DNA of 64,000 nt from Branchinecta lynchi (lineage: Eukaryota; Arthropoda; Branchiopoda; Anostraca; Branchinectidae). The stretch lies in contig JAKZAP010000007.1 in assembly GCA_023053575.1 (NCBI GenBank), positions 15,901,508 through 15,965,507 on the forward strand. Direction: 5' to 3'. Shown one piece after another: positions 11,898 through 57,493 of this stretch (positions are counted from its first letter, which is position 1; each line of letters opens with the position of its first letter). Below the pieces are notes generated by a model. It had not been told where the DNA came from, made no database searches, and saw only the letters and a program-made list of their open reading frames with translations. Made by a program: the position numbers and the translations under genes.

Positions 11898-14800
11898 CTG
11901 GGAAATATAAGACAATCAAAACCAAAGGTAAAAGCATCAAAGCTTGGATATTCACTCGAAGCACAAGGAGCAGTAGATCCAGTCACTGTCTAATTAAACT
12001 AAATTAAATTAAACAGGAGCTAAGAGCTCATATGGCACTTGTTACGGGTAGGTGGTAGAAGGAAGTAGATGAGAACATAAAAAAATACACCTGTCATCCA
12101 AAAATGCGGTTCGGACATAGAAATATGATATGTGGTCTGGGCATTTCCGGCATCGCCTTGGATCATCTGGGGCAAATGACTGTTCTAACTTTCAAATTCA
12201 GCCCAATAAATGCACTCGTTTCATCCCTATAGACGTGCCACACACCTTCCGGTACCTCCCTCCGACTCCCCTACCGCGGCCGAATCTGGTTCGGACTCAA
12301 TAGTGGATCATCTAAAGCATCTTCTCTTACCACCTATCAAGTTTCACTCGAATCTGAGCACTTTTTTGAAAAATAGCGGTGTGGGGCTAGGGCTTGATGT
12401 GGGGCTAGGGCTTGACCAGGAAACTATTGTTCCTTTTCTTGCAAGGCCGCTATTTATTGGCGGATTTACATCGTTCTTGTTGTCAAACCTGTAGAATGTC
12501 TAGGATGTCTGAATACCTGGTAATTTATTCGGATTTTTTTTTACATTAGGCTTTTAAGTAAAAAAAATTTCTGTTCTTCAAATTGTCCGAACCAACCCCG
12601 TACCCACGGGATTGATTCGGACAGGCCCCGGCTTGATTCGGACATTATTTGTAATGTATTATCTTTTACTTAAAGTTGAAATGATGATACTGCAGCTCAA
12701 AAGTAAACACAAAACTGAAGAAAATAAATTTTTTCAAGAGCCGAGGTTGCATTAAAATAACAAGAGCTACGAGCTCATATGGCACTTGTACGAGTAGGCT
12801 GTACAAAAAGTAGATGAGAACGTCACAAAATACACCCGCCATCCAAAAATGTGGTTCGGAAATAGAAATAGGATATTTAGTTTCACTCATTTCTGAGCAG
12901 TTCCGGCATCGTCTCGATTGTCTGTAGCAAATGCACACGACTGTTCAAACTTTCATCCCAATAAATCCATTTGTTTGATCCCTAGACGTGCTACACGATT
13001 TCCGGTACTCACTCTATCTCCACCTACCGTGGCCGAATCTGGTTCGGAATAAAAAAAATCGACCAACTAAAGCATCTTCTTTTATACCATCTATCAAGTT
13101 TCACTCGAATCTGAGAATTTGTGGAAAGTTCCAGTACCCCCCCCCCCTCCCACCAATGTTGTCGGAGCCGGTTCGGGCCCAATCTCTTAATTCCCTGTTC
13201 CTGTCCATCAGGTTTTACTGAAATTGGAGCATAGCCTATCTGCAAGTTTCCAGTACCCCCCCCCCCCCTACTTTGGCCGAATCCGGCCCGGACGGCAAAT
13301 AACAAATCTAGGCCGCATAAACTCTGCACTGTCGAATTTGCATCTCATTCGGTCCATCCGTTTTGTTTTTGTGCATGTCAAAAGCCCCCCACCCCCAATT
13401 TCCCCTAGTCGTGGTCGCATATGGTTCGAACGCATGTTTTACATGTCGAGAACATCGATTCATATCACCCATGAAGTTTCACTCGAATCAGACAATTCGT
13501 TCGCAATTTATAGAAGTCAATTTCCATATTTCTCTTTTCTTGCTCCCCAAAAAATGCTCGGATCTAGGAACGGAAGTTTCCGGGGGTATGTTGTGTCAGG
13601 TTCTTAAGTCAAGATAATTTGGGTCGCTAATATGCCTGCAAAGTTTCGTTGTCGTTTTACATCTGGAACTATTCTAACTCACGACTACCGGAATTCCAGG
13701 AAACCCCCTCCAACTCCCCCCACAGAGCCCCGAAACCATCTGGCTCCGTCAATTTCATCTAGGCTTAATGCTTGTTCCATCCATTAAGTTTCGTCCCAAT
13801 CCCTCTGCTTTTAGAGTTTCTTGAGTTTTCCACCCCCCCCCCCCCATCCCCACAGGTATCGGACCCGACCCGGACGTGACACTGAACGTCCGAGGCGATA
13901 GCTCACCAGACAAGTTTCATTCAAAACCGACCACCCGTTCAAAAGTTATGCACGCCACTAGATTCCGGACTCCCCATCCATCTACTCCCCCCACGATGGT
14001 CGGGTCGGGGAAACGGCTGTTCTCAAGTCAATCTGTTCGGATCCCTGGCATACCTGCCAAGTTTCATCGCCCTAGGACATCAGGAAGTATGCCGAACTCG
14101 CGGGATCGCTAGAAATCCGGACCCCCTCCCCAACTCCCCCACAGTGCCCTTATCCGGTCCGGTTATGTCAATGACGTGTCTAGGACTTGTGCTTGTTTTT
14201 CCCACCAAGTTTCATCCCGATCCCTCCACTCTAAGCGTTTGTCATAATTTCCGGTTCCCTCCTCCAACTCCCCCCAGTGTCATCGGATCCGGCCCAGATT
14301 TAAAGTGAGATGTCTGAGACACGAGGTCATCCTAAATATCAACTTTCATCAAGATCCGATCACCCGTTCGCAAGCTAAAAATACCTCAAATTTGGGTTTC
14401 ACCCTCCCTCCACTCCCCCCCCCCCCCAGATGGTCGAATCGGGGAATTGACGATTTCTTATTTAATCTGCTCGGGTCCCAGACATGCCTGTCAATTTCCA
14501 TCGTCCCAGCACATCAGGAAGCACGGAACTCGCGGGATCACTACAAATTCGGACTTCTCCCCCCCCCCAACTCCCCCAAAGTGAGCGGATCTGTTCCGGT
14601 TATATCAGTCACGTATCTAGGACTTTTGCTTGTACTTTCCACCAAGTTTCATCCGGATCCCTCCACTCTAAGTGTTTTCCAAGATTTCCGGTTTCCCCCT
14701 CCAACTCCCCCCAATGTCACCGGATCTGGTTTGGATTTAAAATGGAGGGTCTGAGACACGAAGTCCTTCCATATATCAAGTTTCATTAAGATCCGATCAC

Positions 14801-17800
14801 CCGTTCGTAAGCTAAAAATATCTCATTTTTCCTATTTTTTCCGGATTCCCCCTCCCTCCACTCCCCTCCAGATTGTCGGATCGGGGAAGCGACCATTTCT
14901 AATTTAATCTGGTCCAGTCCCTGATATGCCTGCCAAGTTTCATCGTCCTAGCTTATCTGGAAGTGCCCGAACTAGCAAAACCGGGACCGACAGACCGACT
15001 GACGGACAGAAATTACAATCGCTATATGGCACTTGAGTAAGCTCAAGTGCCATAAAAATCCTTCATTTGTGCTTTCAGTTAACCTGGCAACGACTTCATA
15101 CTTATGTCAGCAAAGGTACATCTTTAGATGGAGCGACTACTCGACTCTGTAGAAAGATGATTTTAGTACCACTCTTGCGCAGATTTTCTGTTCCTTTTTT
15201 GTCCGACTTTCCCCAAAAGAAACACTTTTGGTTCGGCCTTATCCCTTGAACTTCACAACGACGAATTCATGTTTTTTCCCTCCTTGAAAATCGTTAGCAG
15301 ATTTAATTACACTAAATTCATTAAATAAACTAAAAGTCTAATTTTTTACTTTATTGTGGCCGACTGATTTTAGCGTTCATTTTTTCGATTTTTGATAACG
15401 AATTATGTTAACAAATGATACGATAAGGATTCTGATAAATGTCTTTTTGTATTTTTCTAACTGAGTTTAGGGTTTTTCTGGGGTATCATTAGGTAGAAAC
15501 TGTCCGAACCATCCCCTGCAAAACTGACCGGACCAACCCCACCCGGACTAAAATAACAAAACGGCGTACCACAGGAAATGAAGTGATATATCTCGGAAAG
15601 ACTTAGCAGGCTATAAACCTCAATTATTAAGCTGTATATTACCATTTAATCGCCTCCAGGTTCCCACTAATCTTCGGGGTACAGCTTTCTACCCTACCAT
15701 GAGCCAAAAACTTTAACCCCAAGAAAACCAATTTTTTTAACTTTTTGTCGAAGCCAGAAAAGCAAGTACCATGAAACTTTGGTACAAAGTTACTACACAA
15801 TAATAGTAGTAAAAACTACTATTATTGTGTCGAACCTTCCCTCTACCCTCTCGGACCCAATAAAACGAAAAGTTGTGATAGACCAGATTGATGGACACGA
15901 ATCAGTCACTAGCATTCGCCCTGTACGTGACAAACTGATTATCAATATAGATAAGTCAGTTGCTGAGGATTTCCGCTTGTCGATAACTGGTGCGATTACA
16001 GGCTCTTCTGCGAAAGTTCTAACCAAGAAGTTTTACGGACTCCTCAAGGGAATTACGCCTGATTTTGAATTGTCCCACCTGATGTCTTGCCCTGGTGTTT
16101 CTGCCGCTTCTAGGCTAGGGAAATCCCTGGCAGTAGAACTCGAATTCTCCGATGCAGCATCAAGATCCGAAGCATTCAGATATGGTCTCAAAGTAGGATA
16201 CGAAATCCTAAGTGTTTATGAGTTCAAGGCGATTCCCCGGTGCTGTAACAATTGCCGATCCCCTGACCATCTCCAGTCGTCTTGTTCCAGTGTTACACCA
16301 AAATGTGCGCGCTGTGCCGGTCCTCATGTCTCAGATAGAGACTCGCCTTGCAATTTGTCTCCTCAGTGTGCAAACTGTGGAGGCGATCATGTTTCGTTTA
16401 GCCTCACTTGCCCAAAATTGAAAGCAATTGTCAGTCGTAAGCTACCGAAAACAAATTAATGTCTGAATCAGTATCTGTCGTGTCCTTCAATATTAATGGG
16501 ACGAAAAACAAGGACCTGACCATTGACGAACTGTGCAGTAAGTTTGACATTGTATGTTTTCAGGAACATCTTTTGACCGCAACGAGTGTTAATTTCCTGC
16601 GTCGCAGTCCTGCCCATTTGGTTTTCACAACTAATGCTAGGTCTACTTTTGGAAGGCCTTCCGGGGGTTTAGCCTGTATTATAAAACAAAAGCTCAGTTT
16701 TCTGTCCCCGTCATGCTATTTTTCTGATGAACATTTCTTGGCCATAAGGCTCGGAAAAACCGTATTGATAAACACTTACCTGCCTCATGATGGGAAAAAA
16801 GTGACTTCGCTTAACAAATTCTCCAAAGCATGCTCTAGTTTGAAAACTCTCCTTCAAAGCATATGCAAAAATGGGTATGAATTCATGATTATCGGAGATA
16901 TGAACACTGATGTAAAACGTGATTCTGTTCGTACTGTGAACCTACTTGATTGTCTCCCCGATTATAGAATAGTTGCGAAGGATCTATCTTTTTCGTATGT
17001 GCATAATTCCGGCAGCCTATCGGATATTGACCACGTAATTTGTTCCCCGTACATTATATCTTCAACAGTGCATGTCCACGAAGATGAGCAAGATACTGAT
17101 CACCTTCCATTATCGCTTTGCTTTTCGATTAGAAAAGATAGTACAGACCAGGCTTTTGCTCCTGCTTCTAAGTGGTTTGTTCGGAGAAACTGGAAAAAAG
17201 TTGATATGCCATTATATATTTCAACCCTGGCCATGCTCCTTGGTTCCTTACGTGTACCCTTTCATCTACTCCAGCGGAGTGTTAGTCCTACCAAAAGTAA
17301 TTATGATCTGAACCATTATTACAACCAAATTGTGTGGTGTTTGAAACGCGCCGAGGAGGTTGCTGTCCCTCAGGAGCGAGTGAGGAGAAAAACGAGGAAA
17401 CCAATTTGGTCGTGTGATCCTGAGCTGAAAATTGTTAAAAATAAAGCCAAATTGTGGCTGAGTATATGGATAGCGAACGGTCGACCACTATCTGGGAATG
17501 TGTTTGATATAAAGCAAAATACTAAGCGCAAGTTTAAGAAATGTCTGCGATCAAGCCGATATAAAGGGTCAGATTGTCCTACCAGTAAGAGTGAATTGGA
17601 CAAAGTGATTAATTCAGCTAAATTAGATAATTCGATAAATCCTAATTGCCCAATTACACCAGCCGCATGGTCTGACCACTATTCTACTATATTTTCCAAA
17701 GTGAATTATGCAGTGCACGCGATTTACTCGAAATTGCTTGATTCGGTTCTCCCGTCTTGCCTGACTCAGGCACAAGTTCTTCCCGTTTCAGTTGATGCTG

Positions 17801-20800
17801 TAATTGCTTCTGTTAAGAAACTGAAATCAAGCTCTTTTGATGTTGACGGTATCAGTGCATGTCATCTAAAAATAAATTGCCCGTCTTTGTTTTTCCATTT
17901 ACAGTTGTTTTTGGGATCCCAAAACGTAAGTGGAGGGATACCTATGACATCGCAAAAGTTGTCCGTCTGTCCGTCCGTCTGTCCGTCCGTCCGTCCGTCC
18001 GTCCGTCTGTCCGTCCGTCTGTAAGCACGATAACTCTCGAAGGGAATGAGATATTTTGATGAAACTTGGTGTGAGGATTCGTTGGGTCGTCGGACCAGTC
18101 GAGTTCGTAGATGGGCTTTGTAGCCCTACATTTAGGGGTGGGGGAGGGGGTTTAAATTAAGGGGCAAACAAAATATTTTTAAACATCTAATTTGATAGTC
18201 GATTATTGGGTAAGAAGACATGCTGAGCACGATGGTGAAAACCATTTTGTCATTGGTCGAGCAGTTCGTCCGGAATCCGGCCAAAACCGGAAAGTTTGTT
18301 AAAAGTAAAAGTTTTATTTGAAGTTGATTAGATGTTCGATTTAGGGGTAGGAAGACATGCTGAAGGCGATGGTGAAAACCATTTAGTCATCGGACGAGTA
18401 GTTCGTCCGGAATCCGGCCAAAACCGGAAAGTTTGTTGAAAGTAAAAGTTTTATTTGAAGTTGATTAGATGTTCGATTTAGGGGTAGGAAGACATGCTGA
18501 AGACGATGGTGAAAATCATTTTCTCGACGGACAAGTAGTTCGCCCGAAATCCGGCCGAAACCGGAAAGTTTGTTAAAATTATAAGTTTTATTTCGAGTTG
18601 ATTAGATGTTCGGTTTAGGGCAAGAAGACATGCTGAACACTTATGTGAAAACAATTTTCTACCCGGACATGTAGTTCGCCCGGAATCCGGCGAAAACCGG
18701 AAAGTTGGTTAAAAGTAAAAGTTTAATTTGAAGTTGGTTAAATGTTTGATTTATGGGTAAAAAGACATGCCGAATACGATGGTTAAAATCATTTTCTCGC
18801 TGGAGAACTAGTTCGCCCGGAATCCGGCCAAAACCGGAAAATTTGTTAAAAGCATAAGTTCGATTAGATGACAGATTAAGGGGTAAGAAGAGGGGCTGAG
18901 TCGGTATATGACAATGATTTCTTACCCGGACATATAATTATTCCGGAATCCGGTTGTAACCGGATTTTTTTTTTCAGTCAACCTTTTATTCAAAGTTGAT
19001 TAGATGTTCTTTATAGGGATAAGGAGATACGCTGGTTTTGTTTCTGTATTTTTTTGTTTTGCTGGACTAGTAGTTCGCTCGGAAATCGGCAGGAAGTCTC
19101 GGTCAGTATCGTCAAAATAGATATGGCTTATAGAGGTATATCTGAACTTGGTTTTCTCTGATGATTAGCCTGTCCAAGACTGGATCTGGCGAAGACAAGA
19201 CTCGATTGTCTGAATCAGATATTAGATTTTTGGGATCCCATCGACACCTTTGGTCTTGTTCCAAATGTGCCTGTGCTGCTCCCTTGTTCCTGATAGCTTT
19301 TTGTGTGGAACTGTCACCTCTGTACTTAAGCGAGGTAAGACTCCGATGGATTGTTCTTCTTACAGGCCTATTACGGTTGCTTGTAATTTTAGTAAAATCC
19401 TTGAGTATATTTTACTACCTTTCATAAGCATTAATGCTAATTTTGGGGAGAATCAGTTTGGTTTTCAGGCTGGCATTGGTTGCCAGCACGCTCACCGTGC
19501 TCTTGCTTCCCTTCTTAAAGATGCTTCGGCTAAAGGTTATGGTCTTCATATTTGTGCTCTTGATCTTTCCAAGGCATACGATAGTGTTGTACATAGTCAA
19601 GCTCTTTACTCTCTTTATAATCATGGTATTAACCTTTCTGTTATTTTTCTTCTAAAGTTTTGGTATGGTAACTCCTATCTTCGGATTAAAACTAATGGTG
19701 CCTTTTCATCTTCTAATGTTTTTGTTCGTCGGGGCGTACGGCAGGGTGGAGTGTTATCTCCTAGTATTTTTAAATTTTGTATTTCTGATATTCTTGAGAA
19801 TATTTCTTCTATGTGTTTTGTTGGTTTGAGTGATATCTCCTACCTTGCTTATGCTGATGACATTCTTCTAATTAGCCGGTCTAAACTCAGTCTTTCGCAG
19901 ATGGTTCATAAAGTTTCTTCTTCTTTTACTAATATCGGTCTTTCGCTTAATGCTGATAAATGCGAGTATCTTTCTTTCAACGTTCCTTCTTCTACTAGAC
20001 CTCTAAGTTCTCAAAATTTCTCTATCCCTCATGTAGACTCGATCCGGTGGTTGGGTATTACACTTACAAAAAATCTTAAAACTCTGCGTGAGCGCGCTGT
20101 CCGGGATGCCAGAGTGAAAATCCAGATTGGTTACTCTAAAATTGTAGCCAATCGAGGGAAATACAATCGTGTCGCCCTTGGTAAACTTTACTCTACTTTC
20201 TCCGATCATTCTGTTCTTTACCTTTCTGGGCTTTACCCTATATTTAAGAAAAAAGACATTAGCGATATTCGATCTTCTTACTTCCGATTCTGTAAATTTC
20301 TTCTCTATCTTCCTCTGTGGTACAAGAATCGAAAGATAGTTAAAAAGTTTTATCTTCCGAATATTACTGAGAAGCTGACTGATCTACACAAAAAGCTCTC
20401 AGAAACAGCGTATCGGCGTTTGTCGCCTCACCACGGTTTGATCCGTTTGTTTTATTAATGTTTTGTTGACTCTAGTTGTTGTTTTACGTCTTTTTCCGTT
20501 TTTTCTTTTTCCTTCTTCAAGTTTATACTCCACTATTAATCTTTTTGATGTAAGTGGGTAATAAATAAATATTATTATTATTATGTTATAAAGTAAGATT
20601 ACTTGAAGGCAGATGTTATTTACTTTTTTCCGATTTTAGTGACAGGTTTTAATATTTGTTTCGCGGGTGTCCAGACCAACCCCGTGTCTGATCCAACCTC
20701 GAGCTCCCCCTACCCAACCGTGGTTGGATCCGGTTCGGACCCTAAAATATGTCATCGAAACTGATCTAGAGCACATGCTCTCTCCGCACTCCAAGTTTCA

Positions 20801-23800
20801 TTTAAATCGCTGCACTCGTTTGAGCCCTATGCGAGCCACAAAGTTTTCGGAACTTCCCGTACTGTGGCCGAATACTTCTTGCCCCCTCCCTACCGTGGCC
20901 GCATCCGGTCCGGACACCAAATAACAAATCTAGGTCGCCGAAACTCGGTACTGTCCAAACTGCATCTCATTCGGTCCTTCCCTTTGTTTTTTGTGCATGT
21001 CAAAAGTTTCCCCTCCCCCTTTAACTCCCCCAACAGTGACCCCATGTCGTTCAAACGCATGTTTTTCATGTCTAGGTCATCAATTCTTAACATCCAGTAA
21101 GTTTCACTCGAATCAGACCACCCGTTCCCAATTTACGGAAGTCAATTTCCGTGTTCCCTTTCCCTCACTCCCCCAAAAATGGTCAAATCCAGGAAGTGAA
21201 GTTTTTCTAGGGCATTGTGTGAGGTTATCAAGACAATTAGATCGGGACACTAAAGTGATGGCAAAGTTTCATCGTCTTGGTACATCTGGAACTATTCAAA
21301 CTCGCGATGACCGGAATTCCGGGCAACCACCTCTAATTCTCCGACATAGCTCCGATAGGATCTGGCTCTGTCAATTACGTATGTAGGCCTAATGCTCGTT
21401 CTCCCCACCAAGTCCCCCCCCCCCACAAGTAGGCTATCGGATCTGATTCGGACTTGACATGGAACATCTGAGACAATAGCTCTTTCCACTTGCCAAGTTT
21501 CATTCAAATCTGACCACCAGTTCAAAACTCGCCCATGCCACGAGATTTCGGATTTGCCATCCTCCCACGACGATCGGATCCGGGAAACGACTATTTTCAA
21601 GTCAATCTGTTCAGATCCTTGACACGCCTGCCAAGTTTCATCGTCTTAGCACATCAGGAAGTATCGAACTCGCGGGGACAGTAGAAATCCCCCCCCCCCC
21701 CAACTTCGCCACAGTGCTCAGATCTGGTCAGGCTATGCCAATGACGTATCTAGGACTTGTGCTTGTTCTTCCCACCAACTTTCATCCCGATTCCTCCTCT
21801 CTAAGCGTTTCCGAAGATTTCTGACCCCCCCTTCAAACTCCCCCCAAATGTTACCAGATCCAGGCCGGATTTAAAATAGGACGTCTGAAACCCGAGGTCT
21901 TTCTAAATATTAAGTTTCGTTCAAATCCGGTCACCCGTTCTAAAGTTATGCATGCCAACAGGTTCCGGATTCCTATTCCTCCACTCCCCCCACGAATGTC
22001 AGATCGGGAAAAAGAATATGCTCAAGTCAGTCTGCTCCGGTCCCTGACGCGCCTGCCAAGTTTCATCGTCCTTGCATATCAGGAAGAACGAACTCACGGG
22101 ATCACTAGAAATTCAACTGCATCCAACTCCAACAGAATTCCGGGATTCGGTCCGGTTACGTCAATGACGTATCTAGTACTTGCGCTTGATCTTCCTACTA
22201 AGTTTCACCCCGATCCCTTCACTCTAAGAGTTTTCCAAGATTTCTGGTCCCCCCTCCAAGTCCCCCAATGTCCCGAGATCCGTTCCGGATTTAAAATGGG
22301 ATGTCTGAGACACGAGGTCCTTCCAAATACCAAGTTTAATTAAAATCAGATTACCCGCTCGTAAGTTTAAAATACCTCAAGTTTCCCCCCCCCCCCCTCC
22401 AACTCCCCCCGATGCCACCGGACCATCCGAAGTTTCATCCCGATCCCTCCACTCTCAGCATTTTACAATATTTCCGGTTCCCCCCTCCAACTCCCCCCAA
22501 TGTCACCGGATCCGGTCCGGATCTGAAATGGGACGTCTGAGACACGAGGTCTTTCTAAATATCAAGCTTCATTTAAGTCCGATCACCCGTTCAATAGCTG
22601 AGCTTGCCACTAGATCCCAGAATCGCTATCCCTTTACTTCCTCCACGATGGTCGGATCGGGGAAACTATACTCTCACGGAATCTGTTTGGGCCCCAGACA
22701 AGCCTGCCAGGTTTTATCGTCCTAGCACATCAGGAACCCCCCCCCCCCCCCACTCCCCCACAGTGCCGGGACGGTAAGGTTACGTCATTCACGTATCTAG
22801 GACTTGTGCTTGTTCTTCCCACCAAGTTTCATCCCGAGCCCTCCACTCTAAGCGTTTCCGAAGATTTCCAGTTCCCCCCTCCAACTCCCCCTCCCCCTAA
22901 ATCTCACCGGATCCAGTCCAGATTCAAAATGGGCGTCTGAGACACGAGGTCATTCTACATATCAAGTTTCATTAAGATCCGATCACCCTTTAGTAAGTGA
23001 AAAATACCACACTTTTCCAGATTCCCCCCTCCCTCCACTCCCCCCAGATATTTGAATCGTGGAAACGATTACTCTCAAATCAATCTGTTCGGGTCTCTGA
23101 CACGCCTGCCAAGTTTCATCGTCCTAGCACACCAGGAAGTACCGAACTGGCGGAATCACTAGAAATTCGGACCCCCCCCCCACCCCAACTCACCCACAGT
23201 GAGCGGATCCAGTCCGGTTATTTCAATCACGTATCTAGAACTTGTATACTTGTTCTTTCCACCAAGTTTCATCCCGATCTCTCCACTCTAAGCGTTTCCC
23301 AAGATTTCCTGTTCCCCTTCCCAATGTCCAATCTCCTCCCCCCCCCCCCCGATTTAAAATGGGACATATGAGACACGAGATCTTTCTATACATCAGGTTT
23401 GATTAAGATCCAATCACTCGGTCCTCAGTTAAAAATACCGAACTTTTCCGGATTCCCCCTCCCTCCACTCCCCGAACGGCAAGTGCCATAAAAACCTGTC
23501 AGGTGTATAGACAGAGTTGATTAAAAATGAAAAAAGAAAGAAACGACACCACAACATGAACCGAAATAATTACAATTCACTAAACCGAAACATCATGAAA
23601 TGGGTGAACACAATTTAGCTTCATTATGTCGATGGATTTCAAGACGGCAGCAGAAGGATCAGCTATACCGAACTTTTATACGAGGTCGTCTGCGGGATGC
23701 CGCAGCCACGTGCCTCTGTCCCAGGTCTATGCTTACAGAGTGTGTAAAACAGAGTTCCAGAACTGAAAATTCAAGAAATGGCTGGTGTCCGATACTTCGC

Positions 23801-40206: not shown

Positions 40207-40209
40207 CCC

Positions 40210-43105: not shown

Positions 43106-44413
43106 GGAGAGATTTCCCAAAAATTCAATATCTGATCCAGACAACTGGGTCTTGTCTTAGCCAGATCCAGTCATCGCCAGACTCTTTGAACATTTTTATA
43201 ATTAAAATTCAGAAACAGATTAAAGCCAAATAGCTAATCATCCATTTCGGCCAAACTCCAGAACTAATTGTCCGGCAAAAAAAAAAGAAAGCTAAGAAAT
43301 GAACTCAGGGTATCTTCTTTCCCCAATAATGAACATCTAATCAACTTCAAAGAAAAATTTAACTTATAACAAATTTCCGACTCCAGCCGGATTCCAGTCG
43401 AACTATATGTTCGGGTAAAATATGAGTGTCACACACGGATTCAGCATCTCTTCTTACCCCTGAATCGGTTATCTAATCAACTAGAAAAAAAACTTTAACT
43501 CTACCAATTTTCCGGTTTTGGCCGGATTCCGGGCGAACTACTTGTCCGTCGAGAAAATGGTTTTCACCACCGTGTTCAGGGTGTGTTCCTACCCCTAAAT
43601 CGAACATCTAATCAACTTCAACTAAAACTTTTAGTATTAACAAACTTTCCGGTTTGGGCCGGATTCCGGGCCAACTACTTGTCCGTCGAGAAAATGGATT
43701 TCACCATCGTCTTCAGCATGTCTTCCCACCCCTTAATCGAACATCTAATCAACTTAAAATATAACTTTTACTTTTAACAAACTTTCCGGTTTGGGCCGGA
43801 TTCCGAGCGAACTACTTGTCCGTCGAGAAAATGGTTTTCACCACCGTGTTCAGCGTGTCTTTCTACCTCTTAATCGAACATCTAATCAACTTAAAATAAA
43901 ACTTTTACTTTTAACAAACTTTCCGGTTTGGGCCGGATTCCGGGCGAACTACTTGTCTGTCGAGAAAATGGTTTTCACCATCGTCTTCAGCATGTCTTCC
44001 TACCCCTAAATCGAACATCTAATCAACTTAAAATAAAACTTTTACTTTTAACAAACTTTCCAGTTTTGGCCGGATTCCGGGCGAACTACTTGTTCGATGA
44101 AAAAATGATTTTCGCCATCGTGTTCAGCATGTCTTTTTACCCCATAATCAACTATCACATTAGCTATTTCAAAATATTTTGTTTGCCCTTTAATTTGAAA
44201 CCCCTCCCCCACCCCTAAACGTAGGGCTACAGAGCCCACCTACGAACTCGACTGGTCCAACGACCCAACGAATCCTCACACCAAGTTTCATCAAAATATC
44301 ACATTCCCTTCGGCGCGACCCTTCGAGAGTTATCGTGCTTACAGACGGACGGACAGACGGACAACTTTTGCGATGTCATAGGTATCCCTCCACTTACGTT
44401 TTGGGATCCCAAA
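43106..44413 (+). mobile_element. R1 element, nearly complete
   Basis: It lacks the first ~30 bp of the 5' end but has CCCAAAAATTCAATATCTG. At least three consecutive 137-bp units follow (starts at 43781, 43918 and 44055), then the C-rich block, CACCAAGTTTCATC, TTCGAGAGTTATCGTGC, GACGGACGGACAGACGGACA and TTTTGGGATCCCAAAA. Confidence 0.85.
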
Positions 44414-45573
44414 AATCCGGTTACAACCGGATTCCGGAATAACTATATGTCCGGGTAAAAAACCATTGTCATATACCGACTTAGCCTCTCTTCTTACCAC
44501 TTAATCTGTCATCTAATCGAACTTATGCTTTTAACAAATTTTCCGGTTTGGGCCGGATTCCGGGCGAACTAGTTCTCCAGCGAGAAAATGATTTTAACCA
44601 TCGTGTTCGGCATGTCTTTTTACCCATAAATCAAACATTTAATCAACTTCAAATTAAACTTTTACTTTTAACCAACTTTCCGGTTTTCGCCGGATTCCGG
44701 GCGAACTACATGTCCGGGTAGAAAATTGTTTTCACATAAGTGTTCAGCATGTCTTCTTGCCCTAAACCGAACATCTAATCAACTCGAAATAAAACTTATA
44801 ATTTTAACAAACTTTCCGGTTTCGGCCGGATTTCGGGCGAACTACTTGTCCGTCGAGAAAATGGTTTTCACCATCGTCTTCAGCATGCCTTCCTACCCCT
44901 AAATCGAACATCTAATCAACTTCAAATAAAACTTTTACTTTAAACAAACTTTCCGGTTTTTGCCGGATTCCGGACGAACTACTCGTTCGATGACAAAATG
45001 GTTTTCACCATCGTCTTCAGCATGTCTTCCTACCCCTAAATCGAACATCTAATCAACTTCAAATAAAACTTTTACTTTTAACAAGCTTTCCGGTTTTGGC
45101 CGGATTCCGGGCGAACTACTTCTCCGATGACAAAATGGTTTTCACCATCGTCTTCAGCATGTCTTCCTACCCCTGAATCGAACATCTAATCAACTTCAAA
45201 TAAAACTTTTACTTTTAACAAACTTCCGGTTTTGGCCGGATTCCGGACGAACTACTCGTCCGATGACAAAATAGTTTTCACCATCGTGCTCAGCATGTCT
45301 TCTTACCCTATAATCGACTATCACATTAGCTGTTTCAAAATATTTTGTTTGCCCCTTAATTTAAACCCCCTCCCCCACCCCTAAATGTAGGGCTACAAAG
45401 CCCATCTACGAACTCGACTGGTCCGACGACCCAACGAATCCTCACACCAAGTTTCATCAAAATATCTCATTCCCTTCGAGAGTTATCGTGCTTACAGACG
45501 GACGGACGGACAGACGGACAACTTTTGCGATGTCATAGGTATCCCTCCACTTACGTTTTGGGATCCCAAAAAC
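44414..45573 (+). mobile_element. R1 element, 5'-truncated, directly after another R1
   Basis: It starts inside a repeat unit (CCGGTTACAACCGGATTCC) straight after the previous palindrome, has about six units, and ends with the full R1 3' series and TTTTGGGATCCCAAAAA. Its end is 24 bp from the mos exon at 45597. Confidence 0.85.
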
Positions 45574-45752: not shown

Positions 45753-48700
45753 CTGAAAAATAAGACGAATCAAACATTGCACGCGTACATGTAAGGTTCC
45801 GCTTCAGCACGCTTCTGAAAGTTTAACAACGTATTCTGAAAATGTCATTCATGAGGAGATCAGACCTGGTAAGCAGCAGCGAGTCGACGGCTGTTCCCAG
45901 TCGATTTCTACAGCTGTCGGCTGAGAACCACGACTTCGATCGTTTCTAAAGCTTTCTCTATAAATCATTTATGCCTTATACTATGGTGACTAGCTCTTCG
46001 TGCCGACGACGAATCGCCGTGTGCCTAGCAAAGAACCAGAAACTCTCGCAGTGACGTCAGCACAACAGAGGTGGTTTAAATAGGATTTGAGTCAGTTTTA
46101 TTACAAAAGAATAGTAATGGTACGTGAGTGTTTTTTGTAAGCAGAATGTTTGCTGTATACGTATGAACCGAACCGAACCCTATGAACCCTACAACGAGGG
46201 GTGGCACTTCTCTAGATGTGATTTCGACTAACATGTTTGATTTTTATGATGATCCGATCCCAGGTTCTCCACTTGGCGGTAGCTACCATTTTACGCTAGA
46301 ATTAAACCCGCGCAATAGAGTCACTATTGAGTACACAACGACAGAAACTACAAGTCGACCAATGACCGATGAGGGTATCCTAAAATTTGGCGAATGGATT
46401 TGTGAAGAAAAGTGGGAATCAGTTTCATCTGCAAAGGATACCAATAGTAAAGCTAGTTTTCTACAGGAAATCCTACTAGCAAAGTACCATGAGTGCTTTC
46501 CCGAGAAGAAGGTGAAGCGACATGCCTCTGACCGGCCTTATATTGTGAAGGCAGTAAAAGACCTTATTAAGGAAAAACTGCGTTTATTTAAAGCTGGTAA
46601 GACTGACCAAGCAAAACGACTGAAAAATAAGATTCGCAAAATGACGAGGAATGCCGCAAAAAACCACTACGCAAATCAGACTGAAAAACTATTAAAGTCT
46701 GACCCTAGAAAATGGTATAATGGAGTGAAGAAAATGATGGGGAAGGTTCAGAAGGGACTTGATTTTAACCTTGATGAAAGTGAACAGGAAACGGCAAATA
46801 AATTAAATGCTCACCTTGCTGCTATAGTTCAAACTCTCCCTCCCCTCCCCCACGAAGAAATTCCCCAAATCCCACCTGATTTTGATTTCCCTAAAATTAG
46901 CCAAGATGAAGTAACTAAAAAATTAAGGAGGCTTAAAAGAACGAGTGTAACACCCGTAGATATTCCCGTTGAGTTGATTAAAGCTTTCCCTGAGAAAATT
47001 AGTAGTCCCCTTTCACATATTTTTAATAAAATAACAGAATCAGGTGAGTACCCGTCAGTTTGGAAAAATGGTTATGTGACACCTATTCCGAAAAAAGATT
47101 CCCCTAATGATTGTACTGGTGTGCGCCCAATTACTATGACCCCTATTTTTAGTAAAGTTTACGAACAGTTCCTTTCATCATGGTTAAAAGAAACAATTTT
47201 GAGACTTGTTGACCCGAAGCAGTTTGGTAACCTGCCAAAAACATCAACAGCACATTACTTAGTTAGCTTGCTAGATAGAATACTTAAGAATTTGGATAAT
47301 CCAAATATATGGATTAATTTAATAGCTATAGACCTAAAAAAAGCGTTTGATTTAATTAACCACAGCAAGCTCATTGCCAAACTCCTAAATAAATTTAAAA
47401 TTGAGCCGTTTCTGGTACGAATTGTTGCACAATTTCTGTCAAACCGAACACAACAAACTAAGTACAAAACGATATTTTCAGATATTTTACCTATTTTTTG
47501 CGGTGTACCCCAGGGTACTCTGTTGGGACCGCTTCTTTTTTTGGTTATGGTCAATGAGCTCGCACTTTCTTTCGCAGATAGGTGGAAATTCGTGGATGAC
47601 CTGTCGCTGCTTGAAGTGTGCAGAAGAAATATTAAAAGCAGTGCTAAGGTTATCATCGATGATATCTGTGATGAGGCAGCTATGGATGACATGGTCGTCA
47701 ACATGGATAAATCGTTGGTGCTAACTATATCATTTTTAAAAAGCATGCCGGACTTTTACCCTCCCCTCCCCACTGCCCAGTGTGTGAAACACATAAAGTT
47801 ACTGGGAATCCATATTACCCATGACTTAAAATGGATCAAACAAGTGGACAGCATGCTTAAAAAGGGTAATATGGCAATCCGATCCCTAAAATTATTATCC
47901 CGTTACGGTGTCCCTACCGAGCACCTTTTAAAAATTTTCTTGTCTTTTATCCGCCCCACTTTAGAATATTGCTGTCAGGTATGGCACTTCGGTTTGACAC
48001 GGGATCAGTCGAATTCGTTGGAGAGATTGCAATTCCGAGCCCTCCTTGTTACTTCCAAATCGCCAAAGGTGCCATACATTGAGCTTCTTCGGAGTTTCAA
48101 GCTGGAATCTTTGGCCCAACGTCGGGAAAAAATGTGCCTCAAATTTGGAGTTAAGACGCTTGAGAATCCTCGTCTGCGAGACATTTTCCCGCCTGAGTTT
48201 GAACCTGTTAGGCCTAGACCTGCGCGAATGGTTTCGCAGCCGATTCCTAAGTTACATCCCCTTTCTGCATCTCATGACCGATACAGAAAAAGCTTCGTAC
48301 CGTCATTCGTCGAAATGTATAACTCATCGTGATTCTCGTATAATTCATCGTAATTCGTGCTTATTTTATAATTGTTTGAATCCTAGTTCTTACATACGTT
48401 TAACGTGACGTCATTCGTCGAAATGCATAATTCGTTGTAACTCTTGTTTATGTTATAGTGATTTGAATTTCAGTTCTAATATAAGTGTAATTGTAAATGA
48501 TCACTTACAGTTTAACGTGACGTCATTCGTCGAAATGCATAATTCGTTGTAACTCTTGTTTATGTTATAGTGATTTGAATTTCAGTTCTAATATAAGTGT
48601 AATTGTAAATGATCACTTACAGTGATTCGAATTGTATATAAGTTTATTATTTATGACAAAATTATGACAAAGGTGTTGATGTTATTATGTTTATGACGAA

Positions 48701-51700: not shown

Positions 51701-54700
51701 AATGGGGTCTTCGGTACCATCCTTTATGCCGAGGCAACGCTGGTCTGAGATAACGAGCGTGTTCCATCCTACTTACCGTAGTTACTATGCATGACGTCAC
51801 GAATTAGGGCTTCATGGATTCAAGGCTGGAACACATTTGTCTATTTTCGTCAAAATCACTCCACGGGGTAAACAACTATTTACTATTAATTACTGTTTCG
51901 AGAAGGTTGAAACGGTTAGCGTAGTAACTTTTCGTGAGGTTGGAACGGAAATAGTAACTAATAGTTACTACTGTTAGAAGGGTAGAACACGCTCAACATA
52001 CCGGGGTTGTAAGGGGCTGATAAGAGCAAAACAGCTTCTTCCACATAAATCCCAATTTTCTTTTCATTAGGAATGTATTGGATGGACTCGCTGTAGAAGC
52101 GTCAATTCACGACGCTTCTACAGCGAGCCTCCCCACCTGCCAACAAAAGAGTTTAGCAGTCGGAGACAACCACATCTGTTAGTCTTAAATAGACTGAAAA
52201 ATGAGCGTTTTTTCGGGACCTTCGGCTAGACCCTAGCTCTCAAAGGGCTCTCTCCCTTTTGCAGGGTTGTAAAGCTTGGTGCCCACAGGTCGCGAATCCT
52301 CCTAGTGACGCCGCAATCGCCCGGGCGAATGCAAATCCCCGTTCGGTGGGTTCTAGGGTTCCCATCACTCTCACTCTCTACCAGGAGCAGAGGGCAGCCA
52401 AAGGGGTTAATAATAATAATAATAATATAACTGCAGTAAAAAAGGCTTTCGCCTCTGTTAATTTCTCGAGACACTGTGGACACTAAATTCAATTTCAGCC
52501 AGGTGTCGATCCACGCCTGCTTTAAACTGATTGATATTTTCGGCATTTACGACATTTCGGGGAGATTATTCCAGTATTCCACTATCCGGTTTTCGAAGCT
52601 CCATTTTCCGATGTCTTTTCGGAATTTCTCACCACGAATTTTCAAGCTGTGTACTCTGAGACCGTTGTGATTGAAAGTGAGGAAATCATCAGGCCTTATT
52701 TTATCATAGTAAGGCTTATGTTATCATAGTAGGCCTTATGTTATCATAGATCAGTAAGACATTGGCCGGTAGAAAAAATAGTAAAGGAATACTGTACCCC
52801 GCCACTGCTCTTCTGAGCTACAAAGTGGGATTGCTCCCAAAGTCTCTCTACCGCTTATTCCTCAAAAGAGACTGATGAGGGAGTCTTAAACTGTTCCCGA
52901 AATTTGCTCTCCTAAGTGTCTCGACCGCTTATTCCTCGAAAGAGACTGATGAGGGGGTCGTAAAATGTCCCCGAAATTTGCGCATGCCCGTCACTGAGTG
53001 AGAGGCATTCGTCACAAAAAAATATTTCACGAATAGATAAGGCACGGACTATACTTACTCGACACACATCAGCAAACCCAATGTGTCTGAGGGATCTTCT
53101 ATAATTTTTTGGAGGGTTCTTCCGGCATGCTCCATAATAATGAGCGACAGACCGCGGTCCACTTTCTGATCTATCCGCAATATCTTAACGACGTTCCGGT
53201 GACTCAGATATAAGGCGTTTAGCTCTCCATCGAGGCTTGTTGTTGGAGACTTGGGCTCCGTGTCTGGGCGGACGATGACCTTCACGGCTACTTCTTTTCC
53301 TGTAAGAAAAAAAAAATATATTTCTTACTCCAAACTTGCGGGACGCTTTCTCTGGAGAACCCCAACGGACGAGCTGTGGAAACCTCACAGCCAGAGAGAT
53401 TTACCCGACGAAAATTGATATTCCCCCAACGTGATCAAAGAAAGTACAAACAAAACAAGAGCTACGAGCTCATATGGCACTTGTTAGGAGTAGGCAGTAC
53501 AAGAAAGTAGATGAGAACGTCACAAAATACACCCGCCATCCGAAAATGCGGTTCGGAAATAGAAATAGGATATTTAGTTTCACTCACTTCTGAGCAGTTC
53601 CGGCATCGTCTCGATTATCTGTAGCAAATGCACATGACTGACTCGTTTGATCACTAGACGTGCTCACGATTTCTGGTACTCCCTCCATCTCCCCCTACCG
53701 TGGCTGAATCTGGTTCGGACTAAAAAAGGGATCATCTAAAGCATCTTCTTTTATACCATACCTATCTATCAAGTTTCACTCGAATCTGAGCATTTTTGGA
53801 AAATTCGGGTACCCCCCCCCCCCTCACCAACGTTGTCGGATCCGGTTCTGGCCCAAAATGTGTCATCTAGGTTGTATGCTCTCTCTATGTTCCATGTTTC
53901 ATTTAAACTGATGCACTCGTTTGACCCCTATGCGAGCCTCAAAATTTCCGTCGATCAGGACAGGCCGAACAGGACTTGAAAACATAAACGTCGTATCTCT
54001 TAATTCCCTCTTCCTGTCCATCAAGTAATACTGAAACTGGAGCATAGCGTATCTGCAAGTTTCCAGTCCCCCCCCCCCCCACCTTGGCCGAATCCGGACC
54101 AGACGCTAAATAACAAATCTAGGCCACATAAACTCGAGACTGTCGAATTTGCATCTCATTCGGTCCATACATTTGGTTTTGTGCATGTCAAAAGCCCCCC
54201 CCCCCCACACCAAAAAAAAAAATCCCCCAACCGTGGTCGCATATAGTTCGAACGCACATGTCGACACCATCGATTCTTATCACCCATTACGTTTCACTCG
54301 AATCAGACCACTCGTTTGCACTTTACGGAAGTAAATTTCCATATTTCTCTTCCCTTGCTCCCCAAAAATACTCGGATCTAGGAACTTAAGTTTCCGGGGA
54401 TATGAATGAATGAATGAATCACATCGGGCAAAAGTAAGGAGTATTCTTTAACCTATTTTTTCCAATAAACCTTCTTTTCTCCCCAATAGCTAATCCTCCC
54501 CCCCCCCTTAAACTCCCCATCCACTTTAAATCTACTCCCGACAACCCAGCTTTAAAATAAATTTCCTCCCCCAAGCATCTTTTGCCTTTGCATAGAACCG
54601 TAGAGACACCGACTCAGCCTTCCGACACTGCCAATCCTAAATTTCCTGATCACGAAGGATTTACTCCACCTTCCGCGACACTTCACCATACTGTAAAGAA

Positions 54701-57493
54701 GTTCCAACGCCACCATTCCATGATTCAGACAGGCCACATCTGTTAAGAATGTTCTTAATTTGATGAGGCCAAGATCGCTTGTGTTCATAGCACAGCGCCT
54801 CCAGGTAGGCTGCTTAACGCAACCTCACTCGCGGTAATGAAATAATTTTCTCCCAGAAACTTAGGATAGTAACCAATCTATTATACCTAAGCGAAAACAA
54901 ACCTAGATCGCCTTTCAATACAATACTACTAAGAGACTCACTAACCCTTCATATCCTTCTAAGTGTCAGGTTCTTAAGTCGGTTTGCTAATATGTCTACT
55001 TTTCGTTGTCTTAGTAAATCTGAAATTATTCTAACTCGCGACCACCGGAATTCCAGGAAACCCCTCCTACTCCCCCCTCAGAGCCCCGAAACCACCTGGC
55101 TCCGTCATTTTCTTATCTAGGCCTAATGATTGTTCTCTCCATTAAGTTCCGTCCCAATCCCTCTGCTTTAAGCGTTTCTTGAGTTTTCCGGTCCGATCAC
55201 AGGTATCAGGCCCGATCCGGACTTGACAATGAACATCCGATGCGATAGCTCTTTCCACCAGACAAGTTTCATTCAAATCCGATCACCCGTTCAAAAGTTA
55301 TGCACGCCACTAGATTCCGGACTCCCCATCCATCCACTCCCCACGATGGTCGGATCGAGGAAACGGCTGTTCTCAAGTCAATCTGTTCGGATCCCTGACA
55401 TACCTGCCAAGTTTCATCGCCCTAGCACATCAGGGAGTATGCCAAACTCGTGGGATCGCCCCCAACTCCCCACAGTGCCCGGATCCGATCCGGTTATGTC
55501 AATGACGTATCTAGGACCTGTGCTTGTTCTTCCCACCAAGTTTCATCCCGATCCCTCCATTCTAAGCGTTTCTCAAGAATTCCGGTTCCCTCCTCCAACT
55601 CCCCCCAGTGTCATCGGATCCGGTCCGGATTTATAGTGGGACGTCTGATGGTCGGATCGGGGAAGTGACTATTTCCTATTTAGCACCGAACTCGTGGGAT
55701 CACTAGAAGTTCGGATTTCTCACCCCCCCCCCCCCCCAAACTCCCCCAAAGTGCGCGGATCCGTTCCGAATATATCAGTCACGTATCTAGGACTTGTGCT
55801 TGTTCGTTCCACCAAGTTTCATCCGGATCTCTCCACTCTAAGTATTTTCCAAGATTTTTGGTTTCACCCTCCAACTCCCCCTGATGTCACCGGATCCGGT
55901 CTGGATTTAAAATGGAGCGTCTGAGACACGAGGTCCTTCCATATATCAAGTTTCATTAAGATCCGATCACCCGTTCGAAACTAAAAATATCTCATTTTTT
56001 ATAATTTTTCCGGATTCCCCCTCCCTCCACTCCCCTCCAGATGGTCGGATCAGGGAAGCGACTATTTCTATTTAATCTGATCCAGTCCCTGATATGTCTG
56101 CCAAGTTTCATCGTCCTAACCTATCTGAAATTGCCCGAGCTAGCAAAACCGGGACCGACTGACGGACAGAAATTACAATCGCTATATGGCACTTGGCCGA
56201 AGGGCAAGTGCCATAATAATTTAAAACTGTGCTACTCTGAGACCGCATTATATGCGTTAGCTTCCGAACCTTTAAGTTGCTGGAAAAGTATTTCCAACAG
56301 TTTCTTGATCATTGACCAATCCCAGTTTAGAAACAAAGTTTTGTGATAAATGAATTCTTGAAGGTTACAAAGTTTTACCACAAAAATAAGTCTCACATCC
56401 TATTTGTCGGTTTTTGCACCTTCGAGTCAAAGCCTGGCTTCCTAGTGGTCAGTACTGCAGTTTATTGACTCAGATCTCTCTCTCTCTCTCAGATCCCCTT
56501 TCGTTGGGTAGGGTGCAGTCCTTTTACTGCAGTTTGGTGGTCGTCATGTGGTCCCTGCCATAAGCGTGATGATGTGAGTGTAGCAGTAAAGCTTCGGTAG
56601 CTCATGCATGCTCAGCACAAAGGTGCTCAGCACCCAAATGATTACGCAGAACGGGAAATCTCCGCTTCGTGGATTGAAATTGGAGATCCTGGGTCCCACG
56701 GAAACTGATCAGACCCCGATCGACGTACAAAGTTACTTTTTACTAAGGGTCCATACAGGGCCGTATCCAGGAATTTATTTCGGGGAGGGGGGGGGGGGGG
56801 GCGTTGCCTGCGGGTCGGACAAAAAAGTACGAAAATGCATAGATCAGAGGGAAAAGCCTATTAAAACGATTATTTTTGTATGTTTCGGGGGGGGGGGGTT
56901 AGGGGGTTGAATGATTTGCCTTGGGTCCATGATTTGATGTCCACTGATTTGCCGATGTATCTTGAAGGGCGAACACCTCAACAGAACGAGAGCCTAGGCG
57001 GAGGGGGGTGGGTGACGAAAACTTGAAGAGGTGAGAAGCTTAACCCGGAGGACAGTCAAGAATCATTCTCTGAGCTAACGTTCTAAGCTCATCTGCAATA
57101 ACCCGGTATGGTAGGTTGAGAGCAAGAAAAGCAAACTTGCCGTGATACTTCCCGGAAAACACAGTCCCAAAAGCTCCTGTCCCTAGAACTGAGGCGGCGT
57201 CAGTCGGCACTCTCCCATTGGCTAAAATCGCAGCTCTGTCCGGCGTGTCGACCTTTAACGACTTGACGCGACAAAGTCTCGGAGACTTTAAAGCTTCATT
57301 ACCGAAACTGTCAGAAAGAAGACGTAGTTCTGTTGGGGTCGTTGGGTAGCGGTCCGGGTTGCAATCGGGTATATTCAAACGGTTTCGGTCGGATCTGGTC
57401 CTGTTCGCTTGTCCGGGGGTGAAATAATTGTTCACTGGGCTCAGAGGACTTCGACAACCATCTCGGGGTGATAAACTTCGAAGTTTGCGACGT
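45597..57493 (-). CDS. mos: Mos-type serine/threonine kinase, multi-exon, partial
   Basis: The coding parts 57493-57141, 53299-53059, 50324-50156 and 45752-45597 join in frame and give most of a kinase domain. Visible: glycine loop GTGAFGTVFSG, lysine motif EVAVKVIV, helix-C region GELNALYLSHRNVV, catalytic loop HLDIKPANILVN, DFGAS, GTIAYCAPE and SDIYSFGVLLWQLWTREMPY. HLD in place of HRD and the PANIL context are diagnostic of the Mos family. Mos is a MEK-activating kinase that controls meiotic arrest in animal oocytes. The start codon exon and the C-lobe end (helices G-I) were not found. Vertebrate mos is intronless; this gene has at least three introns, the first with a GC donor. Repeats fill all three introns. 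Confidence 0.92.
46182..48332 (+). CDS. LINE ORF2 remnant: reverse transcriptase
   Basis: It starts in the last endonuclease motifs (SLDVISTNMFD, GSYHFTLE, where SDH is expected, so the Asp is replaced by Tyr). RT blocks: GVRPITMTPIFSKVYEQF, DPKQFGNL, AIDLKKAFDLINHSKL, GVPQGTLLGPLLFLV and the catalytic FVDDLSLLE; then LLGIHI, a conserved thumb, and FIRPTLEYCCQVWH plus LERLQFRAL near the C terminus. FVDD replaces YADD, as in several CR1/L2/RTE-like groups. No frameshift or stop interrupts 716 codons, so the insertion is probably recent. The first methionine is not necessarily an original start. Confidence 0.88.
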   Translation: MNPTTRGGTSLDVISTNMFDFYDDPIPGSPLGGSYHFTLELNPRNRVTIEYTTTETTSRPMTDEGILKFGEWICEEKWESVSSAKDTNSKASFLQEILLAKYHECFPEKKVKRHASDRPYIVKAVKDLIKEKLRLFKAGKTDQAKRLKNKIRKMTRNAAKNHYANQTEKLLKSDPRKWYNGVKKMMGKVQKGLDFNLDESEQETANKLNAHLAAIVQTLPPLPHEEIPQIPPDFDFPKISQDEVTKKLRRLKRTSVTPVDIPVELIKAFPEKISSPLSHIFNKITESGEYPSVWKNGYVTPIPKKDSPNDCTGVRPITMTPIFSKVYEQFLSSWLKETILRLVDPKQFGNLPKTSTAHYLVSLLDRILKNLDNPNIWINLIAIDLKKAFDLINHSKLIAKLLNKFKIEPFLVRIVAQFLSNRTQQTKYKTIFSDILPIFCGVPQGTLLGPLLFLVMVNELALSFADRWKFVDDLSLLEVCRRNIKSSAKVIIDDICDEAAMDDMVVNMDKSLVLTISFLKSMPDFYPPLPTAQCVKHIKLLGIHITHDLKWIKQVDSMLKKGNMAIRSLKLLSRYGVPTEHLLKIFLSFIRPTLEYCCQVWHFGLTRDQSNSLERLQFRALLVTSKSPKVPYIELLRSFKLESLAQRREKMCLKFGVKTLENPRLRDIFPPEFEPVRPRPARMVSQPIPKLHPLSASHDRYRKSFVPSFVEMYNSS
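48299..48622 (+). repeat. Tandem ~112-bp units at LINE 3' end
   Basis: Two near-identical units start at 48401 and 48513 (TAACGTGACGTCATTCGTCG ... AAATGATCACTTACAG). A diverged first unit starts at 48299 inside the last codons of the RT frame (CGTCATTCGTCGAAATGTAT). Confidence 0.85.
48767..50155. other. mos intron DNA with a small direct duplication
   Basis: No gene recognised. A ~90-bp segment is duplicated at about 49660-49750 and 49867-49955 (TCACCAATGCTTACG, TCTGCGCCACAT, CTCGCGGAAAGTTGT, GACTCGGGAAAA). Confidence 0.45.
50156..50324 (-). CDS. mos: mos exon with catalytic loop and DFG
   Basis: Acceptor TTGTTTTGCAG, donor TTAAAG|GTGAGA, 169 nt. It encodes FAHQIASGMSYMHS, HLDIKPANIL and ITDFGAS. 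Confidence 0.95.
50325..51754. repeat. mos intron, old foldback-like repeats
   Basis: 50430-50530 and 51600-51720 carry inverse copies of sequence seen at 9110-9240 (AACCGAAAAGGGCTAAGAC / AGCCCTTTTCGGTTAAA), with AAACTTTAAAGTACGTATTG near 50835 mirrored near 51220. This suggests a decayed foldback of about 1.25 kb. Confidence 0.5.
51755..51994. mobile_element. R3 family MITE, 240 bp, AAC target duplication
   Basis: GAGCGTGTTCCA at the left, TAGAACACGCTC at the right, flanked by AAC at 51752-51754 and 51995-51997. Confidence 0.85.
52240..52740 (-). mobile_element. Non-LTR retrotransposon 3' fragment
   Basis: On the minus strand a decayed C terminus of a CR1/L2-type ORF2 is readable (HSLKIRGEKFRKDIGKWSF, NRIVEYWNNLPEM) with stops, followed by an ATTATTATTATTATT tail at about 52410-52430. 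Sequence beyond the tail (to 52240) is a different, unassigned repeat. Confidence 0.7.
53059..53299 (-). CDS. mos: mos exon with the VAVK lysine and hinge
   Basis: Acceptor TTTTCTTACAG, donor GTCGA|GTAAGT, 241 nt (2 + 79 codons + 2). It encodes EVAVKVI, the helix C segment and the hinge-like LIIMEHAGRTLQ. Confidence 0.93.
53453..56214 (+). mobile_element. R2 family element, both ends, with internal insertion
   Basis: 5' AACAAGAGCTACGAGCTC then ATATGGCACTTG; 3' GACTGACGGACAG, then ATATGGCACTTG, loop GCCGAAGG, and CAAGTGCCATAA. Internal CAAGTTTCAT units are interrupted at about 54400-54965 by unrelated sequence that starts with an ATGAATGAATGAATGAA run. It lies in the mos intron with the GC donor. 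Confidence 0.85.
56215..57140. repeat. mos intron with poly-G dispersed modules
   Basis: 56755-56905 has GGGCCGTATCCAGGAATTTA, a G-run, then AAACGATTATTTTTGTATGT before another G-run. The same module recurs at 57625-57735 and 57855-57930. A CT-run (TCTCTCTCTCTCTC) is at 56478. No gene otherwise. Confidence 0.5.
57141..57493 (-). CDS. mos: mos exon with glycine loop; GC donor
   Basis: A possible acceptor TTTCTTTCAG ends at 57494, and the frame is open from there without a methionine, so a start exon should lie further right. Basic and Ser/Pro-rich N-terminal residues (RSLSPRDGCRSPLSP) precede the kinase domain. The exon ends TATCACG|GCAAGT at 57141: GC rather than GT, and only this junction continues Gly-Lys-Glu-Val-Ala-Val-Lys in frame. 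Confidence 0.82.

Follow-up and report, generated by a model that had tools for sequence, protein, structure and literature searches.

The 64 000-nucleotide stretch of Branchinecta lynchi DNA analysed here (the window) contains two abundant repeat families, R1 and R2, which were recovered by self-comparison of the window (Table 1). R1 is represented by six sizeable copies or partial copies (a–d, f and g), a 3′-end fragment (e) and an old remnant (h), and R2 by four sizeable copies (A–D) and one 3′-end fragment (A0). The array period is 136–137 bp in R1. In R2 the array unit is about 430 bp, with many repeat spacings of 417–442 bp and others of 232 to 400 bp. A preliminary description of this DNA had recognized both families and the single plan on which they are built, and the self-comparison bears this out. 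The copies that it listed were recovered; R2C, R2D and the R1 pair at 43115–45572 had been left out. Of the ORFs that lie in or overlap R1 and R2 copies, the ten longer ones put to Pfam have no match above the cut-off (one was sub-threshold, E 0.075), and Rfam and tRNA scans gave no match.

The window also encodes two LINEs. The first, which is interrupted by R1a, has a CCHC gag-like ORF recognized by eye (no Pfam match), together with endonuclease and reverse transcriptase (RT) domains. It is open across the parts read except at R1a, and over the part searched it shares 93% identity with a relative, P0121. The second is an RT ORF of 721 aa, for which the best listed relatives are about 50% identical. 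A further ORF of 463 aa contains a Tudor domain (Pfam E 3.3e-31); none of the candidates scored for it in a large protein search reached E 0.001.

Table 1. Positions of the repeat copies, their targets and other features in the window. For R1 and R2 copies, the strand is that of the direction of HINEs (non-autonomous Helentron-type elements), i.e. opposite to the reading of the preliminary description
Feature	Position	Strand	Remarks
R1a	17908–19260	+	Complete; in LINE ORF; T5 17908–17912, palindromic subTIR, GTCC tract 17961–18019, 137-bp array, 3′ subTIR about 19227–19240, CTTGTT 19255–19260
R1b	26805–27892	+	Complete; CCATCAG separates its 3′ end from facing R1c
R1c	27900–28865	-	Complete; part of 3′ palindrome lost by a 7-nt deletion
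R1d	29719–30659	-	Complete; 3′ end ATTGTT; host is a small palindromic repeat
R1e	39878–40210	-	3′-end fragment, CTTGTT intact
R1f	43115–44415	-	5′ end intact; 3′ end missing from within 3′ subTIR on
R1g	44411–45572	-	5′ end intact; stops inside array at the T-tract that starts the R1f 5′ end
R1h	2276–2817	-	Old remnant, 5′ end with T6
R2A	12759–15058	-	Complete; T5 and ATGGCACTTG hairpin, microsatellite, array of ~437-bp units, 3′ subTIR, GAGCT-CGT-AGCTC palindrome, CTTGTT
R2B	53454–56219	-	Complete; TTATT as T-tract
R2C	about 20706–23490	-	Damaged; 5′ subTIR present, complementary arm and microsatellite gone, 3′ end unrecognizable
R2D	34530–37313	-	Complete
R2 A0	12003–12372	-	3′-end fragment, CCTGTT
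R1b/R1c pair	26805–28865		Two R1 copies in one target
R1b/R1c target repeat	26612–29032		~360-bp dispersed repeat
Paralogue of this repeat	58860–59214	-	Uninterrupted; empty site for R1b and R1c; 83% identity to joined flanks
Second paralogue	7092–7456	-	Uninterrupted; 78% identity to joined flanks
R1d target repeat	around 29640–30735		Small palindromic repeat, TACCACGGTAACTG...
Other copies of this repeat	4763–4847, 10057–10185, 10395–10488, 33740–33824
First LINE	15671–20458	+
Second LINE RT ORF	46167–48332	+
Tudor-domain ORF	869–2260	-
Palindromic-unit array	38395–39478
Tandem duplication	48398–48623

Anatomy of the elements and reading direction

When read on the strand opposite to that of the preliminary description, R1 and R2 match the published HINE anatomy part by part. 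Both families comprise T5, a 5′ subTIR, a complementary arm or self-palindrome, a GTCC microsatellite, the box GATGAAACTTG, a G-rich tract, a tandem array, an inverted 3′ subTIR, a short palindrome and CTTG-TT. In R1 (copy a) the order is TTTTT-GGGATCCC-AAAACG, the GTCC tract, the array and TTTTTGGGATCCCATCG-ACACC-TTT-GGT-CTTG-TT. In R2 it is TTTTT-ATGGCACTTG-loop-CAAGTGCCAT, the GTCC tract, the array and CAAGTGCCATAT-GAGCT-CGT-AGCTC-TTG-TT. The R1 subTIR sits within a 16-nt self-palindrome and has no separate complementary arm, whereas the R2 subTIR is followed by an adjacent arm. Oyster HINEs are described as having a left part with 5′ subTIR, complementary IR and microsatellite, then tandem repeats, then a right part with 3′ subTIR and palindrome, and their microsatellites include GTCY, GTCC and GTCK (PMC7492417). 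The likeness to HINE/DINE elements proposed in the preliminary description therefore fits better than it knew, with the ends exchanged. The feature that it had taken for a 3′ hairpin is the HINE 5′ subTIR with its complementary arm (or the palindromic subTIR), and the AACAAGA from which it read the elements corresponds to the 3′ end of a HINE, a palindrome followed by CTTG-TT.

The outermost bases are largely constant. T5 begins six of the seven R1 copies that keep the 5′ end (T6 in h) and three of four in R2 (TTATT in B), and CTTGTT ends four of five in R1 (ATTGTT in d) and three of four in R2 (CCTGTT in A0). On the other strand, the AACAAG end previously given for both families holds in seven of nine recognizable ends, R1d having AACAAT and A0 AACAGG. 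The earlier observation that the terminal sequence recurs within the other end was sound. A complement of 11–13 nt to the 5′ subTIR lies in the last 48 nt of six of the seven complete copies (0/2000 shuffles as good in each), and in R1d the longest end-to-end complement is just 7 nt (124/2000). With that copy excepted, these lengths lie in the HINE range of about 11–15 bp. HINE subTIRs lie 2–4 nt from the 5′ end, and such a position is found here, the 5′ subTIR beginning 0–5 nt in, a range set by how many T5 bases are counted as element. The 3′ subTIR lies about 19–21 nt and the palindrome about 3–6 nt from the 3′ end. The parts follow one another as in the mite elements, at shorter distances (38–60 and 8–35 nt, respectively, in the mite); in the oyster HINE, both parts are described within a 60-bp right flank (PMC7492417).

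Folding differs between the families. Pairing of the 5′ arm with the neighbouring IR is clear in R2B (0/2000 shuffles as good); it is weaker in R2A and R2D (22/2000 and 26/2000), where the segments compared began at a flank base and covered 7 nt of the arm. R1 gave no signal (337 to 1026 of 2000 shuffles as good), as expected of a subTIR that is itself a palindrome. As single-stranded DNA, the 5′ ends of R2A and R2D fold strongly (z −7.77 and −6.58; 0/200 shuffles as good), and the folding energy of the R1a 5′ end is unremarkable (z −0.83; 37/200). At the 3′ end, a 5-bp stem is predicted in R2A (z −1.75; 7/200) and R2D (z −0.37; 66/200), and no stem is predicted for the R1a palindrome, ACC-TTT-GGT, of 3–4 bp (z 1.42). 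The term 'hairpin-ended', which had been applied to both families, is thus fair for the R2 5′ end and weak elsewhere.

Relatedness of R1 and R2

The bodies of R1 and R2 had been described as unrelated. They are less so than was claimed, as their left modules are colinear and share spacing and some sequence. With the first T as origin, the start of the GTCC tract lies at 52–58 in all nine R1 and R2 copies measured. The box GATGAAACTTG starts at 103–124 in six of the eight copies that have it (R1b, d, f and g, R2A and B); the outliers are R1a, with a longer tract (151), and R2D, with a local triplication (192), and R1c has no box. Where its pattern matched, the G-rich tract starts at 177–199 in five of six copies (R1b, f and g, R2A and B) and at 226 in R1a; the stricter G-rich pattern gave no match in R1c, R1d and R2D. 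In the left modules of these six copies, the G-rich tract begins about 74–83 nt past the start of the box. The 11-mer box occurs 22 times in the window, every time inside R1 or R2 copies. It is also present inside the R2 array units, which suggests that the R2 array may have grown from the left module.

Alignments of the stretch following the microsatellite were made for three pairs of copies, and the proportion of shuffles as good was 2/1000 for R1g–R2A, 12/1000 for R1d–R2A and 60/1000 for R1b–R2B. The indications of homology in this stretch are therefore mixed. The subTIR sequences of the two families are wholly different. Both families do contain the internal arrays, GAC tract and C-rich tract noted for them earlier, although the patterns used did not match the C-rich tract in every copy. 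The R2 tract is GACCGAC..., not quite the GAC(G/T)GAC reported. The block (GAAAGTTAT or GAGAGTTAT) previously placed in both families after AAGTTTCATC and before the GAC tract is present in five of six R1 copies checked (R1c is without AAGTTTCATC) and absent from all three R2 copies checked. Motifs with four G runs number 18 in the 18771 bases of R1 and R2 copies and 13 in the 45229 bases outside them.

Insertion sites

Uninterrupted counterparts are available for four R1 insertions, as paralogues within the window (b, c and d) or as a protein relative of the LINE (a). The 3′ ends of R1b and R1c face each other, separated by 7 bp, within one copy of a dispersed repeat. In the paralogue ending at 59214, the empty site is AAG-TTTTT-CCACAG-AAAAA-CCGG; that ending at 7456 has T4, as AAG-TTTT-CCCATCAG-AAAAA-CCGG. 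The filled site is CAG-TTTTT-[b]-TT-CCATCAG-AA-[c]-AAAAA-CCGG, where each element, in its own direction, is preceded by T5 and followed by TT. The A-rich end, formerly counted as part of the element, is thus a T5/A5 tract that pre-exists in the target at R1b (T5 or T4, depending on the paralogue) and at R1c. With one copy in its T tract and another in its A tract, this repeat is a hot or doubly used target.

R1a breaks the LINE ORF that carries the endonuclease and RT domains. The nearest uninterrupted relative, P0121, reads HLQL-F-FQM at this position, one residue more than the frame alone would give. Of 120 matches listed, 19 were compared at the site; P0124 and P0136 were dropped, and the other 17 carry the extra residue, namely P0121 (F) and 16 further readable relatives (mostly L). 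Because uninterrupted relatives have this additional residue, the R1a target was probably CAGTTG-TT(T/C)TT-CCAAATG, a codon deduced from protein on the supposition that the window LINE had the residue of P0121. With TTT as the codon, the target would be T5 followed by CC, as at R1b. The empty site obtained from the frame alone, CAGTTGTTCC, was rejected, being one codon off by the same comparison. The host of R1d is a small palindromic repeat with three paralogues, whose identity to the joined flanks is 78–86%. At the position of the insertion they show TTGTT, TTTTC and TTTTT, a difference that makes the exact R1d target uncertain.

At R1a, R1b and R1c, a T-tract has become T5-[GGG...CTTG]-TT, with a duplication of at most TT. 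HINEs likewise enter TT or T-rich sites and leave the target unmodified. The preliminary description held that target duplications are lacking, and none longer than TT is present at the four R1 insertions; this is clear at a, b and c and less so at d. The outcome is explained either by extra Ts carried by the element or by a 2-bp TT duplication. The same ambiguity is reported for Helentrons by Thomas (2014; PMC4067079), where the division of the terminal Ts between element and target is called unclear. R1 bears on this division with unusually clean empty sites, where T5 marks one end of the element and TT the opposite one. No spanning paralogue was found in the window for R2 A, B, D or A0, for R1e or for the f–g pair, so that empty sites were available for none of the three complete R2 copies.

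Classification, transposition and alternative explanations

R1 and R2 are, very probably, two families of HINEs of the kind that carries tandem repeats, like Pearl and Cg_HINE. They add two families, one with an unusually clean insertion site, to a well-described group. Comparison with published families (PMC7492417, PMC4067079, PMC5139131, PMC7992393) was made by their descriptions, and identity with one of them is possible. Frequent but non-obligatory HINE features, a microsatellite and central tandem repeats, are both present. A canonical Helitron, with 5′ TC, 3′ CTRR and insertion between A and T, was rejected, as the ends are T5 and CTTG-TT and the target is a T-tract. The 3′ palindrome of R1 argues against the HINE assignment, being of 3–4 bp, without a predicted fold and cut in R1c.

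The closest likeness in descriptions is to Cg_HINE_1 to _13 of the Pacific oyster (Vojvoda Zeljko 2020; PMC7492417), in part order, GTCC-type microsatellite, TT target and lack of a TSD. Their monomers are given as 138–181 bp, against 137 bp in R1, and a plan shared among families of unrelated sequence, described for their group 3, is a further likeness. They differ, by description, in that the R1 subTIR is self-palindromic without a separate arm and the R2 unit is about 430 bp. In that account, no link from the HINEs to any autonomous element is drawn. Pearl (CvA, CvE), DTC84 and MgE of bivalves are also alike by description, with short arrays of ~160-bp repeats between modular flanks (PMC7492417, PMC5139131). 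HINE-Mo of the mite Metaseiulus is described as having, like R1, palindromic subTIRs 2–4 nt from the 5′ end and no IR; it shares the 3′ palindrome, T-rich targets and empty sites without target modification, whereas the 3′ subTIR and palindrome are nearer the 3′ end in R1 and R2 (Thomas 2014; PMC4067079). The layout of R2, a subTIR followed by a complementary IR, is that given for Drosophila DINE-1 and oyster HINEs, and DINE-1 is also described with a microsatellite, a 3′ stem-loop and a preference for TT (PMC4067079, PMC7492417).

The published Helentron hypothesis, in outline, is of a Rep/helicase/endonuclease acting via a single-stranded intermediate; by the account of Thomas (2014; PMC4067079), the mechanism still needs biochemical work. 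Applied here, it joins the observed ends and target behaviour to a presumed enzyme and intermediate. A Rep/helicase (with endonuclease) encoded by an autonomous Helentron at another genomic locus would nick at the T-tract, and rolling-circle replication would peel off one strand. The 3′ palindrome beside CTTG would act as the stop, and a T-tract in the target would receive the displaced strand. Pairing of the 5′ subTIR with either the adjacent arm or the 3′ subTIR may allow the ends to be recognized or brought together, and the central arrays would be passengers that grow and shrink.

The 18 window ORFs put to Pfam revealed neither a Helentron protein nor an autonomous relative. When the window was scanned for other families that combine T4 or more, a subTIR and CTTGTT, 11 pairs resulted; those with both ends recognizable are R1 and R2 copies, and the rest are chance or cross-copy pairs. 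In the control, which used 30 orderings of the six letters, the other permutations gave 2 to 14 pairs, so that the scan shows no enrichment. Exact-pattern scans of viral contigs and GTDB genomes gave no match, as expected of an animal repeat. In literature text, none of the matches listed for AACAAGAG looked related, and those for GACGGACGGAC were unrelated by title.

The preliminary description had one enzyme moving both families by reading structure more than sequence. This is not favoured by the weak R1 hairpin, by left modules that share spacing and some sequence, or by the lack of a partner in the part scanned. A single Helentron machinery that moves both families despite their unrelated subTIR sequences is a doubtful, if conceivable, reading. 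Such a machinery would recognize T5 as the start, palindrome-CTTG-TT as the stop and, in addition, the mutual complementarity of 5′ subTIR, partner arm and 3′ subTIR, and the subTIR sequence would be free to change if all three arms changed together. Two enzymes are at least as likely as one, because Helentron families are grouped by identical subTIRs in Thomas (2014). There is about an even chance that R1 and R2 are HINEs each moved by its own Helentron family through its own subTIR, with a shared plan that reflects common Helentron descent. The threshold for a family, at least 11 identical subTIR bases as described by Thomas (2014; PMC4067079), separates R1 from R2, and the colinear left modules fit divergence from a common plan; the identity of the T5 start and the CTTG-TT end in the two families speaks against it. 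With similar ends and two different subTIR designs, R1 and R2 form a natural test pair within a single genome.

Cut-and-paste (DDE) MITEs with internal repeats, and retroposons that end in a 3′ stem-loop and a short A tail and depend on a LINE RT for copying, were rejected on the lack of duplication beyond TT and on the unlike ends. The former, although non-coding, with inverted repeats near both ends and AT-rich targets, is most improbable: the repeats are subterminal, T5 at one end faces palindrome-CTTG-TT at the other, and the four R1 insertions, R1d least clearly, have no duplication beyond TT. Pearl elements were at first classed as such MITEs. They have since been reclassed, by the published account, as non-autonomous Helentrons (PMC7492417). 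A retroposon is slightly less probable still. In the direction of the preliminary description, the end is indeed a stem-loop (R2) or palindrome (R1) followed by A5, and two LINEs are present in the window. However, the A tract is of five bases in nine of 11 ends and is explained at R1b and R1c by the target T-tract, the duplications typical of target-primed reverse transcription are absent, and inverted subterminal repeats would be unexpected.

The abutting pairs, R1g–R1f and R1b–R1c, could each represent a single rolling-circle event (tandem or paired transfer) rather than separate insertions. The R1g array is cut exactly at the start of the R1f T5, and 3′-truncated inner copies are among the features reported for tandem Helitrons (PMC7492417). 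Against this, R1g is 96% identical to R1a (780 nt) and R1f 79% (1358 aligned positions); the R1g break falls at a normal target, a T-tract that is T10 in R1a; and R1b and R1c are 84% alike and occupy two separate T/A tracts of one target. Single events are, on balance, improbable. The R1g–R1f junction suits either a nested T-tract insertion with later loss of the right part of R1g, the remainder of which was not found past R1f, or a 3′-truncated tandem copy.

Two further repeats lie in the window (Table 1). One is an imperfectly periodic array whose palindromic units are of the CCCCGACAAGTCGGGG type, and the other is a perfect 112-bp tandem duplication in two copies.
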